Counted from the stretch's first letter, positions 41,066 to 46,414 are shown. The stretch: DNA of 64,000 bases from Fibrobacterota bacterium (GCA_947466585.1 CANIEU010000003.1:1-64000); one strand, 5' to 3'. The notes: generated by a model not told the origin, from the letters alone. Made by a program: numbers and translations.

Positions 41066-41212
41066 GGTGGCCTGAATATTAGAAATTGTCGAGGCCGGAG
41101 CCCGGTCTACTCCTCATTTGGTGCGCTCTGCAGGCCATTTCGAGGCTTGAGTGGGACCTGTAAGGTGCTTGAGGCAGGGTTAAAGAACGGGTATTTCGTA
41201 CTTTGTGCCCCT

Positions 41213-41899
41213 ATGCAAATTTTTCAAAAATGTGCGCGGATTTCCGGGAATCTGATCGTCTGCACCCTTTTAGGGATGGCTTCCGTCCTTCCCGTTCATG
41301 CCGCTGAAACTCCGGCATCGCCCGCGCTGAAAGAGGCGCGGACGGCACTTGCGGCCCTCACCGAGAAGCATCGCACGGCCGCTGCGGTTTCGTTGTCGTT
41401 CGAATCCCGCGCGGAGGGTGCGGATGGTAATCCCATGCCTCCGGTGAAGGGTAATCTGGTCACCGCCGATTCCGGACGCTTTCGTCTGCAACACGCACAG
41501 GGTCTGGTGGTCTGCGACGGCGAGACCGTGTGGCAATACTTTCCCTCGACCAAGCAGGTCGTGATCCGCTCGGCTTCCGAATCGAATGCGAATGGTTCAG
41601 GCGGCGCGGGTGGAATCCTGCTTCGCTTTCTGCAGGCGCGTGCCACCAGCGCAGGAAAAAGCGGGAAAGACGGGACTCTGCGGGTGGTTCTCGACCCGGG
41701 CAGCGTGGGAGAAAGTCTCGATAGTCTGATCCTCACCCTCTCCGCCGATGGACGCACGGTGCGCCAAGTCGAAACGCAAGATCCCGCGGGCAACCGCGTG
41801 TCCTACGCCCTCAAGTCGCTGCGCTATGACGCGCGTCCCGGACGGGCGGCGTTCACGTTCAAGGTGCCGTCCGGCGTTGAGACGGTGGATATGCGGTAA
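41213..41899 (+). CDS. lolA: Outer-membrane lipoprotein carrier LolA
   Basis: This is a periplasmic chaperone that carries lipoproteins from the LolCDE complex to the outer membrane, 228 residues from the ATG at 41213; the track start at 41030 lies in the divergent upstream region. A signal peptide (VCTLLGMASVLPVHAA) is followed by a beta-rich domain with FESRAEGADGNPMPPVKGNLVTADSGRFRL, the GETVWQYFPSTKQVVI motif, and LILTLSADGRTVRQVETQDPAGNRVSYAL near the end. It is consistent with lolC/lolD elsewhere in the window. A weak TTGAGG-N17-TATTTC promoter lies just upstream. Its stop codon overlaps the first unit of a heptad-repeat element. Confidence 0.9.
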   Translation: MQIFQKCARISGNLIVCTLLGMASVLPVHAAETPASPALKEARTALAALTEKHRTAAAVSLSFESRAEGADGNPMPPVKGNLVTADSGRFRLQHAQGLVVCDGETVWQYFPSTKQVVIRSASESNANGSGGAGGILLRFLQARATSAGKSGKDGTLRVVLDPGSVGESLDSLILTLSADGRTVRQVETQDPAGNRVSYALKSLRYDARPGRAAFTFKVPSGVETVDMR

Positions 41900-42004
41900 C
41901 AATGAACAATGGACAATGGACAATGAACAATGGACAATGAACAATGGGCAGTGAACGCGTGGGAGAAAGCCCGGGATACCGAGCATTGAGCATTGTTCAT
42001 TGAT
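41899..42004. repeat. Heptanucleotide inverted-repeat hairpin, locus 4 (ACAATGr class)
   Basis: Eight contiguous units in exact 7-base register run from the lolA stop: ACAATGA, ACAATGG, ACAATGG, ACAATGA, ACAATGG, ACAATGA, ACAATGG, GCAGTGA (41899-41954). A GC-rich middle follows, and then an opposing arm that reads TCAATGA, ACAATGC, TCAATGC on the other strand (41981-42004). The two arms can pair. It lies 60 bases before yajQ. Confidence 0.8.
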
Positions 42005-42063: not shown

Positions 42064-42558
42064 ATGGCTTCCTCCGACTCCTCATTCGACATCGTCTGCA
42101 AGACCGACCTTGAGGAACTGCGCAACGCGGTTCAGCATGCCCAAAAGGAACTGGCGACCCGCTTTGATTTCAAGGGCGGAAAGTCGTCCCTCGAGCTGGA
42201 AAAAGACACGGTCACATTGATCTCGGACGATGAGTTCAAGTTGGAGCAGCTGCGCGATATTCTGGAGAACAAGCTCATCAAGCGCGGGATCGATCCGCGT
42301 ATGGTCAAGTACTCCACCCCGGAAGCTGCCGCCAAGTTGACCATGCGCCAGAAGGCCGAATTCCAATCGGGCCTCGCTCCCGAGCAGTCCAAAAAAATCG
42401 TGAAGCTCCTCAAGGATTTGAAGATCAAGGTGCAGGCTTCGATACAGGGCGAACAGGTGCGCGTCACCGGCAAAGACAAAGACGATCTGCAATCCTGTAT
42501 TCAGGCCATTCGCTCCGCCGATTTCGATTTCGCCTGCGAGTTCACCAATTACCGCTGA
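42064..42558 (+). CDS. yajQ: YajQ-family cyclic di-GMP-binding protein
   Basis: This is a UPF0234/YajQ protein, 164 residues, of a family shown in some proteobacteria to bind cyclic di-GMP and act in regulation. It begins SSFDIVCKTDLEELRNAVQHAQKELATRFDFKG, which is the family signature, and ends QSCIQAIRSADFDFACEFTNYR, also typical. The middle PEQSKKIVKLLKDLKIKVQASIQGEQVRVTGKDKDDLQ is standard. It lies between the lolA heptad hairpin and the surface-protein cluster, with about 14 bases to the next start. A regulatory role here is inferred from the family. Confidence 0.95.
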   Translation: MASSDSSFDIVCKTDLEELRNAVQHAQKELATRFDFKGGKSSLELEKDTVTLISDDEFKLEQLRDILENKLIKRGIDPRMVKYSTPEAAAKLTMRQKAEFQSGLAPEQSKKIVKLLKDLKIKVQASIQGEQVRVTGKDKDDLQSCIQAIRSADFDFACEFTNYR

Positions 42559-42571
42559 CCTCGGACGCAAT

Positions 42572-44203
42572 GTGAATTCGTTTTTCTCCCTGCCTGCATG
42601 GGCACCGTTCCTTGCGTTGGCCGCCCTGGTCGCCTTGGTCGGTGCGCCGGGCGATGCGCAGGCCCAAGACTCCGCCTCGCTGGCCTCCAAGTCCCTGATT
42701 CAGGTTTACGCAATACAGAACCGGGTAATCGCTTTCGCCGACGGGGGTGCGAGTTATAGCCGGCTCGATCTGTTTGCCAATCCGCCGCAGGTCGCCACGC
42801 GCTCCTGGCCTTGGGATGGCGGGGCGGAAGGAGGCGCGCCCTGGGGAAGCTCCCTGCTGCTGCGCGCCCAATACCCGATCACCGATTCGACCCGCGTGGT
42901 GCGCGCGACCTCCTTGCGCTTCGACGGTACGTTCCGGGGCGGTGATAGTTTGATTTTTCGCGACCTCGACACTTCCATCGCCCTGCTTAAGGGGGCGAAC
43001 CTGACGGCGTTGGCGATCCGCACCGCCGCCGATACCACCGCCGTGTTGGGCTTCGGCCGTTTGGGAATCGCCTACGCGCGCCTTGCTCCCGAAACCGGCC
43101 CCGGTTCCACCGTGCTGTTCAACCCGGCGGACACGCTCGTTCATTTTGTGGCGTTTCCTTCCGCATCGGATACGGCGCGCGCGCTCTACTCCTGCCGTTG
43201 GAACCGCCTGTGCCGCATCGACACGCTCTCGGGCGTACCCGCGCTCGACTCGGTGATCGCCGTGGCGGTCGACTCCTCGCGTGCCGATTCGATCTGGCTG
43301 CTCATCGCTACGCAAAAGGGATTGCGCCGCGGCCTCTACGGCGGAACGGTGTTCCCCTACGTGTCCCTCCCCGGAATCGACGGCAACGGAACCGCGGTGC
43401 GCTCGGTGTTCACTTCGCCTTCCCGTGGGCTCGCTTGGGTGTTCTCGGGCTCGCGCTTCTTCTTCAGCGATGATCACGGTGCAAGCTTTCGCGTACCACC
43501 GAACTACGGCAGCCTTGCGAGCCCTCCGTCTTCGTTGAGCGGGTTTTCTCCGGACCGTCCCGTGTCGGCCGCGTTTTACGGGGATACCACCTACATCAGC
43601 TTCGGCATGGAACGTCCCGGTCTCATCTTGTTCCGTCGCGACACGGTGCTCACGAATGTGGGAACAGGGCTCGGCCAAATTCTCCTCGACACCGCCGACG
43701 GTCTGGATATCACCTCGGGGGAAGGCTCGCTCACGACCGTGGCCGTGGCGCGCACCACCGGCGGCGCAGCCACGATCGTCTCCGGCTCCACCCTCAAAGG
43801 ATTGTTTTACCGGCGCGCGGACCAACCCGGCACCGCGTTCGCGAACCTGAACCGCCTCAAGGTTTTGAAAAACTCACTCGCCGAGGTAATCACCTACCCA
43901 ACCCTTTTCACCGCGGCCAAAACCTGCGGCGAGGCGCACGTGCGCATCGGGTACCGCCTCAAAAAAGACGCGCATGTCACTATCACCGTGTACAACTACG
44001 CCATGGAAAAGGTGCGCGTGATCGTGCGCAACGCCCCGCGGCAGGGCGGCATTGCCCGCAGCGAAAATCTCGCCGAAGACCGTTGGGACGGCTGTGATGC
44101 GGGAGGCCGTTTCGTGTCGGTCGGCACCTATTACATCCTGGTGGAGAGCGATCAGGGTGAGAAAGCGTTCGGCAAGTCCTTGGTCACGCGGGGGAGAAAG
44201 TGA
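42572..44203 (+). CDS. Secreted protein with FlgD-like/T9SS-like C-terminal domain
   Basis: This is an exported protein of 543 residues, unknown ligand. It uses a GTG start at 42572 followed by a signal peptide ending AQAQDS. The main part reads as a beta-propeller-like surface domain with repeated short strands (for example LVHFVAFPSASDTARALYSC, SVFTSPSRGLAWVFSGSRFFFSDDHGASFRV). The C-terminal about 85 residues, AHVRIGYRLKKDAHVTITVYNY through WDGCDAGGRFVSVGTYYILVESDQGEKAFGKSLVTRGRK, match the FlgD-type Ig domain and resemble the type-A sorting domain recognised by T9SS. Being next to two PorV-like genes supports a T9SS cargo role. Its stop overlaps the GTG of the next gene. Confidence 0.8.
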   Translation: MNSFFSLPAWAPFLALAALVALVGAPGDAQAQDSASLASKSLIQVYAIQNRVIAFADGGASYSRLDLFANPPQVATRSWPWDGGAEGGAPWGSSLLLRAQYPITDSTRVVRATSLRFDGTFRGGDSLIFRDLDTSIALLKGANLTALAIRTAADTTAVLGFGRLGIAYARLAPETGPGSTVLFNPADTLVHFVAFPSASDTARALYSCRWNRLCRIDTLSGVPALDSVIAVAVDSSRADSIWLLIATQKGLRRGLYGGTVFPYVSLPGIDGNGTAVRSVFTSPSRGLAWVFSGSRFFFSDDHGASFRVPPNYGSLASPPSSLSGFSPDRPVSAAFYGDTTYISFGMERPGLILFRRDTVLTNVGTGLGQILLDTADGLDITSGEGSLTTVAVARTTGGAATIVSGSTLKGLFYRRADQPGTAFANLNRLKVLKNSLAEVITYPTLFTAAKTCGEAHVRIGYRLKKDAHVTITVYNYAMEKVRVIVRNAPRQGGIARSENLAEDRWDGCDAGGRFVSVGTYYILVESDQGEKAFGKSLVTRGRK

Positions 44204-45321
44204 GATCGATGTCTTCCGCCGACGCAAAAAGTTTCGGTTTTCTCCGCCGTCACGTTTTATTCCTCTTGGCTTTTCTGACGATCGCGGAGATTTTCGCCGC
44301 TTCGCAGGAAGTGCTCGGCGGCCACGAAGGCTGGCTCGACCGCATGGGTGCGGGTGTGCGCGAGCTGGGCCGCGGCAACACAGGCACGGCGCTTTCCGAT
44401 GCCGCGCCGGCGGCGTATTGGAATCCCGCCTTGCTGCCCTTCTACCGTAAAACTTACGGCGCCATGGGGGGCGAAGTGCGCAGCCTCGATCGTACGGGCG
44501 GGTATCTCTCCCTGCAAGGCCCGGTCGCCAACAATCTCGGTCTCGGTGTTGGGCTCGTGAATCGTGGTGACCTCGGAATTCGCGCCTATGACGAAAATGA
44601 AAACCCCGTGGGCACGGCTCGGCCGCAGGCTTGGGCGACCTACTTCGGCGCAGGCATGCGCACCTCGCGCCGCAACGCCTTCGGAGCCACCTTGCAAGTC
44701 TACGCTTCCACCCTCGACGTGGGCAACGGCGTAGGTGACGTCCACTTCGTGGGCGGCGTGAATCTCGGCTGGTATCGCCGTTATGATTCACTCAGCCTCG
44801 CCTCGCTGGTTCCCGACGCCTTGCCGCGCTTGCAACGTATTGCGGACATGTTCTCTGGGGCCTTCAGCACCGCTGTGGTGGTGCGCAACCTCGGCATCAA
44901 CCAAAATCTCTCCGCCGATTTCGATCAAACCGTGACCGGCGAAGATGTCGGTTTCGGGTCGGCCTCCAGCAGCGCGGACTTTTTCCCCAAAACCATCGTG
45001 TTGGCGGGCGAATGGCGTCGCCGCCTCTATGACCGCAACGTCGCCTTCGCCGCGGAGCTGTTGGATTATCAACTCAAAAACACGTTGTTCACGGCCGACC
45101 CCGCCGCGCACACCCAAGCCCTGCGTCTCGGTGCGGAGGCCGAGGTAGCGGAGAAGACCTATTTGCGCGCCGGGCTCGACCGCCTCAACCCGACCTTCGG
45201 TTTGGGATACACCTACCGCTGGAGCCGTGCGCGGACGATCACGTTCGATTACGCCCTCATCCTTGAGCGAGGCGCCACCACCTTCAACCCCTATGCCGTG
45301 GGCTTGAAGACCTCCTTTTAA
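44200..45321 (+). CDS. PorV/UPF0164-like outer-membrane beta-barrel protein
   Basis: This is a predicted outer-membrane barrel protein, 373 residues, possibly a shuttle or porin-like factor for T9SS substrates. The GTG at 44200 overlaps the preceding TGA with GGGGAG four bases upstream, and the alternative ATG at 44209 gives nearly the same protein. After a hydrophobic segment (HVLFLLAFLTIAEIFAASQE), the motif MGAGVRELGRGNTGTALSDAAPAAYWNPALL is the UPF0164/PorV signature (GxRAxGMGGAxxAxxDxxxAxxxNPA). The rest alternates amphipathic strands and ends FNPYAVGLKTSF with a terminal aromatic, as in outer-membrane proteins. Confidence 0.8.
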   Translation: MRSMSSADAKSFGFLRRHVLFLLAFLTIAEIFAASQEVLGGHEGWLDRMGAGVRELGRGNTGTALSDAAPAAYWNPALLPFYRKTYGAMGGEVRSLDRTGGYLSLQGPVANNLGLGVGLVNRGDLGIRAYDENENPVGTARPQAWATYFGAGMRTSRRNAFGATLQVYASTLDVGNGVGDVHFVGGVNLGWYRRYDSLSLASLVPDALPRLQRIADMFSGAFSTAVVVRNLGINQNLSADFDQTVTGEDVGFGSASSSADFFPKTIVLAGEWRRRLYDRNVAFAAELLDYQLKNTLFTADPAAHTQALRLGAEAEVAEKTYLRAGLDRLNPTFGLGYTYRWSRARTITFDYALILERGATTFNPYAVGLKTSF

Positions 45322-45352
45322 CGACTTCGCCGTTTCGTAGATTGACCGCTCA

Positions 45353-46318
45353 ATGACCACCCGATTTGCTGCGCCCCGGATTTCGTTCTTTTCGCTCTTT
45401 GTAGCGCTGTGCCTCGCATCCCTTGCGACGCCCCGCCTTGTGTGCGCGCAGACAGGTCTTGATTTGGGCGCCTCCAGTTTTCAGTTCCTGAAACTGTCTC
45501 TTTCGCCCCGGGTGGATGCGATGGGTGGAGCCGGTGCAGCACTGGCCGGAGGCCCTTCCGAAGCCGAGATCAACCCGGCCGTCGTCGCCGGTCAAAAAGG
45601 TGCTCTCGCGCTCGGTCAGGAATATCCGCCCAAGGAGTTCGGCACGCGCGCCAGTTCGATCGGATGGAGTTTGCCGTGGGACGGTCGCCGCGTACTTCTG
45701 CACGCGCGCTACCTCGGGTTCGACGCCATTCCCGGCTGGAATGCCGACAACAACGCCACCACGGCCTATGGGGCGCATACGTTGAAATTACAGGCCGGTC
45801 TTGCCGGACAAAATTACGGGTTCGATTGGGGCGGAAGCGCGGCCTATGCCCGCAACAACATCGCCGATGCATCCTACTCTGCCTTGCTTGCGAACGCGGG
45901 CGTGCGCCACGATGTGTCAGTTGGGTTTTTGCCGGGCAGTTTATCGTTGGGTGGCGCGGTCGATAACGCGGCCTTATGGGCGGGCAAAACCCAGGAGACC
46001 GGAGAAACGCTCGAGTTGCCAACGATTTGGCGCGCGGGTGTGGGATATACGCGTGACCTGAAACCGGGATCGCGCGTGATCGTGGCTGTGGATGCGCGCA
46101 AAACCGACAAGGAAGACCTGGTGTTTCCGGTCGGCGTCGAGTACCGGATGTTGGAGGCGCTGCAGTTACGCGCGGGCTATCCGGTGGGCGATCCCGACAA
46201 CGGATTTGCTTTGGGTGTCGGCCTCAAGTGGTCGCGCTTCGCCTTCAACTATGCCTACAAGAACCATTCCACGCTCTCCGGCGGTCACAGCTGGACGTTG
46301 GAGATCGGGGATTTGTAG
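45353..46318 (+). CDS. PorV/PorQ-family outer-membrane protein
   Basis: This is a 321-residue predicted outer-membrane barrel protein. A signal peptide ends CAQTGL, and the next segment FLKLSLSPRVDAMGGAGAALAGGPSEAEINPA matches the N-terminal signature of the PorV/PorQ family (FLxxxxSARxxAMGGAxxA). Repeated amphipathic strands and a terminal GGHSWTLEIGDL support a barrel. It lies 31 bases after the previous barrel gene, with the FlgD-domain gene further upstream, forming a cargo-plus-two-shuttles block. A heptad hairpin lies three-prime of it. Confidence 0.85.
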   Translation: MTTRFAAPRISFFSLFVALCLASLATPRLVCAQTGLDLGASSFQFLKLSLSPRVDAMGGAGAALAGGPSEAEINPAVVAGQKGALALGQEYPPKEFGTRASSIGWSLPWDGRRVLLHARYLGFDAIPGWNADNNATTAYGAHTLKLQAGLAGQNYGFDWGGSAAYARNNIADASYSALLANAGVRHDVSVGFLPGSLSLGGAVDNAALWAGKTQETGETLELPTIWRAGVGYTRDLKPGSRVIVAVDARKTDKEDLVFPVGVEYRMLEALQLRAGYPVGDPDNGFALGVGLKWSRFAFNYAYKNHSTLSGGHSWTLEIGDL

Positions 46319-46323
46319 ACGAA

Positions 46324-46414
46324 GAGTCGACAGTTCACGGTTCACAGTTTACAGTATCCGCTTATTTCGCTGTTCCGGTTTTACTGTTCACCGAAGACTG
46401 TAAACCGTCGACTC
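46324..46414. repeat. Heptanucleotide inverted-repeat hairpin, locus 5 (ACAGTTn class)
   Basis: The left arm is GAGTCG then ACAGTTC, ACGGTTC, ACAGTTT, ACAGTAT (46324-46357). The right arm (46381-46414) reads, on the other strand, GAGTCG then ACGGTTT, ACAGTCT, TCGGTGA, ACAGTAA. I count 24 of 34 positions pairing, with the outer eight (GAGTCGAC) perfect. It sits between two convergent genes (PorV-like and ubiA) and could end both transcripts. Confidence 0.8.

Follow-up and report, generated by a model that had tools for sequence, protein, structure and literature searches.

A conserved predicted beta-propeller and PorV/PorQ-family barrel gene pair in Fibrobacterota, with likeness to the PorZ:PorQ half of the type IX attachment complex

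The DNA considered here is a window of 64,000 nucleotides (GCA_947466585.1, CANIEU010000003.1:1-64000), the first part of contig 3 of a Fibrobacterota bacterium whose genome is 2.24 Mb and 98% complete. Three co-oriented genes, here called P1, P2 and P3, lie on its + strand at 42572-46318. P1 is predicted to encode a secreted beta-propeller protein ending in an immunoglobulin-like (Ig) domain, and P2 and P3 appear to encode outer-membrane barrels related to PorV and PorQ of the type IX secretion system (T9SS). Their features are as follows.

42572-44203, + strand: P1, an open reading frame of 543 amino acids with a predicted signal peptide at about residues 1-32
42674-43861, + strand: predicted beta-propeller region of P1, residues about 35-430 (AlphaFold2 (AF2) model, Foldseek, phylum alignment)
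43877-44200, + strand: predicted C-terminal Ig domain of P1, residues 436-543
44190-44203, + strand: P1/P2 junction, GGGGGAGAAAGTGA, a Shine-Dalgarno-like run plus stop-start overlap
44200-45321, + strand: P2, predicted PorV/PorQ-family outer-membrane barrel (open reading frame, PorV/PorQ profile, AF2 model)
45353-46318, + strand: P3, predicted second PorV/PorQ-family barrel (open reading frame, PorV/PorQ profile)

The stop-start overlap that the original prediction had stated for P1 and P2 is present, as the 4-nt GTGA at 44200-44203, and just 5′ of it, within the last P1 codons, is a purine run, GGGGGAG, that resembles a Shine-Dalgarno sequence. This arrangement is widely kept. The overlap is exactly -4 nt in 45 of 72 junctions among relatives, and 69 of the 72 lie at or near the range -4 to +2.

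The P1, P2 and P3 proteins

The curated PorV/PorQ family model NF033709, with a cut-off of 90 bits, gives P2 45.7 bits (6.6e-12) and P3 82.9 bits (2.9e-23). Despite these sub-cut-off scores, the homology of both proteins to the family, as judged from sequence, is convincing, and the claim that two PorV-like genes follow P1 has held. The solved T9SS PorV, 6h3i_F, is matched by the P2 family profile at 1.2e-15 and by that of P3 at 5e-21; P3 is closer to PorQ (49 bits) than to PorV (28 bits). The AF2 model of P2 has a predicted local distance difference test score (pLDDT) of 80 and a predicted template-modelling score (pTM) of 0.77. Its best Foldseek matches are PorV chains (8gl6_F, E 5e-12, template-modelling (TM) score 0.62; 6h3i_F, 2e-11, TM 0.60), ahead of FadL at about 0.48 and the Bacteroidota BamG chains at 0.42-0.46. 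P2 by its model and P3 by its profile are thus FadL-like barrels that appear closest to PorV.

Profile scans of P1 give one credible Pfam domain, FlgD_ig (PF13860), which spans residues 452-529 and is weak, with 18.4 bits (E 0.002) where the cut-off is 27 bits; they found no enzymatic domain. Among 32 P1 homologues, 20 match FlgD_ig (best 2.5e-7), five match CHU_C and one matches TIGR04183 (1.1e-4), so that the FlgD/T9SS-like character originally ascribed to the C-terminus of P1 is not due to chance. Six of the same 32 touch FlgD models and seven match the PorZ model NF052228, which describes a protein of about 757 amino acids with two propellers and has a cut-off of 260 bits.

The AF2 model of P1, made from an alignment of 59 sequences (pLDDT 83, pTM 0.77), is read as a single beta-propeller followed by a C-terminal Ig domain, the order found in PorZ, to which the PDB searches also point. 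Foldseek places the propeller sensors BT3049 and BT4663 first, with TM-scores that are low because each of these has two propellers. The P1 family profile matches BT4663 (4a2l) at 4e-18 and PorZ (5m11) at 4e-5. BT4663 is the nearest structural relative of PorZ (PMC8545088).

The Ig domain is the best-conserved part of P1, with a mean pairwise identity across the phylum of 0.42 versus 0.19 for the propeller. Compared with the C-terminal domain (CTD) proteins retrieved from the same genome, its profile is nearest to that of a PorZ candidate described below (5e-7; hhalign 96%), with PorU at 2.5e-5. Uncleaved CTDs, which carry an extra hairpin, have lengths of 96 (PorZ) and 108 (PorU) residues, and cleaved cargo CTDs 67-88 (PMC11285876). 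The predicted P1 domain, of ~105 residues, falls in the range of the uncleaved CTDs and above that of the cleaved cargo. A lipobox-like motif was found in only six of 59 P1 homologues.

Distribution and gene order in Fibrobacterota

P1 is present in 148 of 168 Fibrobacterota genomes, with one match in each except for a single genome with two. In the 168-genome search its full-length frames are nearly all about 450-690 amino acids long, and a frame of ~540 recurs even where the alignment covers the C-terminal part alone. All named relatives are Fibrobacterota, Fibrobacter succinogenes among them. The order lolA-P1-P2 on one strand was seen in all 32 sampled loci, which represent 13 families; P3 comes next after P2 in most of these, and in most Fibrobacteraceae there is no P3 beside P2 and recF comes after instead. 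Its presence across the phylum, nearly always in single copy and in a conserved housekeeping order, and the far stronger conservation of its Ig domain than of its other parts suggest that P1 is a lasting component, more like PorZ than like a passenger.

In several families of deep-branching lineages the order is ftsK-lolA-P1-P2-P3-mreB-mreC-mreD-PBP2(-rodA), as at loci L079, L081, L082, L083, L089, L091-L093 and L096 (ftsK was unseen in L083). Genes for the outer-membrane surface are there nested between division and elongation genes.

Other genes of the window that bear on the locus are:

41147-41899, + strand: lolA, outer-membrane lipoprotein carrier (PF03548, 39.3 bits; start position uncertain)
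42064-42558, + strand: yajQ/DUF520 (PF04461, 202 bits), between lolA and P1
28160-34762, - strand: sprA, T9SS outer-membrane translocon (TIGR04189, 593 bits, cut-off 200; PF14349)

The insertion of yajQ between lolA and P1 is confined to the window's own family (f1). Short heptamer repeats (AACAATG; ACAGTTC) flank the yajQ-P1-P2-P3 block at 41898-41956 and 46330-46355. A promoter and terminator scan of the locus was uninformative.

T9SS parts elsewhere in the genome

Judged by its gene content, the host genome has a T9SS, at least in part, with both SprA and a PorU sortase. The candidates outside the window are:

C4:66805-70992 (L113:6806-10993), + strand: PorU candidate of 1396 amino acids, the single C25 protease (PorU sortase model, 429.5 bits, cut-off 420)
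C1:217780-219975 (L199:7781-9979), + strand: PorZ candidate of 732 amino acids with a type-A tail (PorZ model, 81 bits)
C1:339984-342422 (L085:4985-7423), - strand: PorV-like barrel of 813 amino acids with an inserted propeller (NF033710, 105.7 bits; PF19572, 43.4, above cut-off)

The C-terminal domain of the C25 protease is FlgD/CHU_C-like, and C25 occurs in 163 of 168 Fibrobacterota genomes. TIGR04183 type-A tails gave 16 matches in the host genome, ten of them above cut-off. The original prediction, which had correctly placed sprA in the window, would have lost its footing had that been the only T9SS gene; PorU above its cut-off, a PorV-like protein above its Pfam cut-off and the TIGR04183 tails speak otherwise. 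A T9SS with SprA and PorU and without detectable GldL, GldM or GldN (GldK was not searched) would have either a motor that has diverged strongly or another source of energy.

The PorZ candidate lies directly downstream of lpxK, which encodes the lipid A kinase, an adjacency that fits the role of PorZ in lipopolysaccharide (LPS) delivery. In the 813-residue protein ~430 residues with propeller repeats are inserted after the first barrel segment. Its relatives occur in 163 of 168 Fibrobacterota genomes, including all 89 of high quality, and it is probably the PorV of the phylum. The combination of a propeller with a PorV barrel is therefore found twice in the phylum, once within a single chain and once split over two coupled genes, and the fused form lends indirect support to a physical pairing of P1 with P2.

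A proposed surface module built like PorZ:PorQ, and its alternatives

In Porphyromonas gingivalis the attachment complex consists of PorU:PorV:PorQ:PorZ. PorZ lies at the cell surface, where it is held by PorQ, a barrel that anchors it probably through the PorZ CTD (PMC5562754); PorZ binds anionic LPS (PMC8545088, PMC5562754). From the gene structure, conservation, predicted folds and T9SS setting observed for P1-P2-P3, we favour, with a little better than even confidence, the explanation that P1-P2-(P3) forms a surface module, core to the Fibrobacterota, that shares its design with the PorZ:PorQ half of this complex. As in PorZ:PorQ, a protein predicted to be a secreted beta-propeller with a C-terminal Ig domain goes with a PorV/PorQ-family barrel, and a core T9SS sortase is encoded in the same genome. 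P1 would be exported by Sec, as its signal peptide suggests, and would then cross the outer membrane through SprA, the C-terminal Ig domain serving as its signal. It would keep that domain after export and dock on its cognate PorV/PorQ-type barrel, P2, which the gene structure indicates is made in step with P1 by coupled translation. Docked P1 would display its propeller at the cell surface. By analogy with PorZ, the propeller probably binds a surface glycan, a lipid or another component, and P1 probably serves cargo attachment or outer-membrane maintenance. P3 would be a further barrel of this family that the module can do without.

Several observations weigh against this explanation or set the locus apart from PorZ:PorQ. 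P1 has one propeller, not the two of PorZ, and P1, P2 and P3 score below the cut-offs of the PorZ and PorQ models, P1 having no match at all to the PorZ model. Generic propellers (4a2l) outrank PorZ in searches with the P1 profile. Because a better PorZ candidate is encoded elsewhere in the genome, P1 is not simply PorZ; as the sole reading, PorZ orthology of P1 was rejected when the 732-residue protein scored 81 bits with the PorZ model and P1 none. The P1 and P2 genes also differ from those of PorZ and PorQ in being adjacent and translationally coupled, and their neighbours, lolA, ftsK and mreBCD, are none of them T9SS genes. The C-terminal domain search that had been proposed gave a mixed result, with the weak FlgD_ig match described above and no match of P1 to TIGR04183 (cut-off 23 bits) at E up to 10. 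The proposed check for the porK to porN genes was partly carried out: the GldL (PorL) and GldM (PorM) models found no match in the host genome, GldK (PorK) not having been searched, and the GldN (PorN) model found none either, but its control was silent too.

The original prediction, in which P1 is a T9SS passenger with P2 and P3 as dedicated shuttles of the PorV type, fares less well, and we consider it improbable. Its model would be the Type B cargo genes, which are followed by a PorP/SprF shuttle of their own. A CTD gene followed directly by a translationally coupled barrel gene is the layout of the cognate CTD/shuttle pairs of Flavobacterium (PMC12618676), and a T9SS sortase and CTD proteins are present in the genome. 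The part of the prediction that stands is a CTD-bearing protein coupled to PorV-family barrels in a T9SS genome. Its "cargo" and "dedicated cassette" do not sit well with a near-single-copy, phylum-wide core gene in fixed housekeeping order with a hyper-conserved Ig domain, which is not how genes for secreted enzymes or adhesins behave; nor does P1 have an enzymatic domain, and the length of its Ig domain is that of a component. The Type B pairs are, moreover, a variable family with PorP/SprF barrels, whereas here a single-copy core locus encodes PorV/PorQ-type barrels and a FlgD/type-A-like Ig domain. As for the PorV shuttle itself (6h3i/8gl6 chain F), P2 and P3 have its fold family and profile in common with it, but they score under the PorV equivalog cut-off and the best PorV candidate here is the 813-residue protein. 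Still less probable, to the point of being remote, is that P1 is a FlgD-Ig protein, periplasmic or flagellar-like, with no relation to the T9SS. FlgD_ig is the one credible Pfam domain of P1 and some homologues touch FlgD models, but the FlgD_ig match does not discriminate, since the same model also matches the CTDs of PorU and the PorZ candidate, and the flagellar reading was rejected on that ground. The partner barrels, moreover, belong to the PorV family.

An outer-membrane assembly canopy is a more serious alternative, if an unlikely one. P2 and P3 would be FadL-family barrels like BamG, and P1 a surface propeller like BamI whose Ig domain merely docks the propeller, together aiding the folding of outer-membrane proteins by BamA. 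In Bacteroidota the barrel assembly machinery (BAM) includes both BamG, whose barrel is FadL-like, and BamI, a surface protein that joins an Ig-like domain to a beta-propeller (PMC12578637). BamG/BamH are spread over the phyla of the Fibrobacterota-Chlorobiota-Bacteroidota (FCB) group, Chlorobiota excepted (PMC12611786). The housekeeping distribution is similar, the lolA/ftsK/mreBCD surroundings are those of envelope housekeeping, and BamG chains do appear in the Foldseek list for P2. They stand there well below PorV, however (TM 0.42-0.46 against 0.60-0.62), and in the PDB profile search P2 and P3 matched PorV and no BamG chain. BamI is also a lipoprotein with an N-terminal Ig domain, while most P1 homologues have no lipobox and the Ig domain of P1 is C-terminal, the reverse order.

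A bolder conjecture, and an unlikely one, is that the locus encodes a surface machine unlike any Bacteroidota complex. A barrel of the PorV type would then pair with a propeller protein of its own to make a fixed site in the outer membrane, linked to the delivery of lipoproteins and to cell growth through ftsK-lolA-P1-P2-P3-mreBCD-PBP2-rodA. Elongation of the envelope would thereby be coupled to the attachment of surface proteins or the assembly of the outer membrane, in a phylum with a T9SS that has no recognisable PorL, PorM or PorN.

The export of surface cellulases by a T9SS in Fibrobacter has so far been inferred from enzyme tails only (PMC6851124), and a literature search on a Fibrobacterota attachment complex or on PorV with a propeller found nothing on the P1-P2-P3 locus. 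A near-universal, coupled propeller-barrel pair, together with the PorU, PorV-like and PorZ-like genes, gives a parts list with which enzyme secretion and display in this phylum can be tested. Because its order with lolA, ftsK and the mre genes is conserved, a connection of surface assembly with cell growth can be tested as well.

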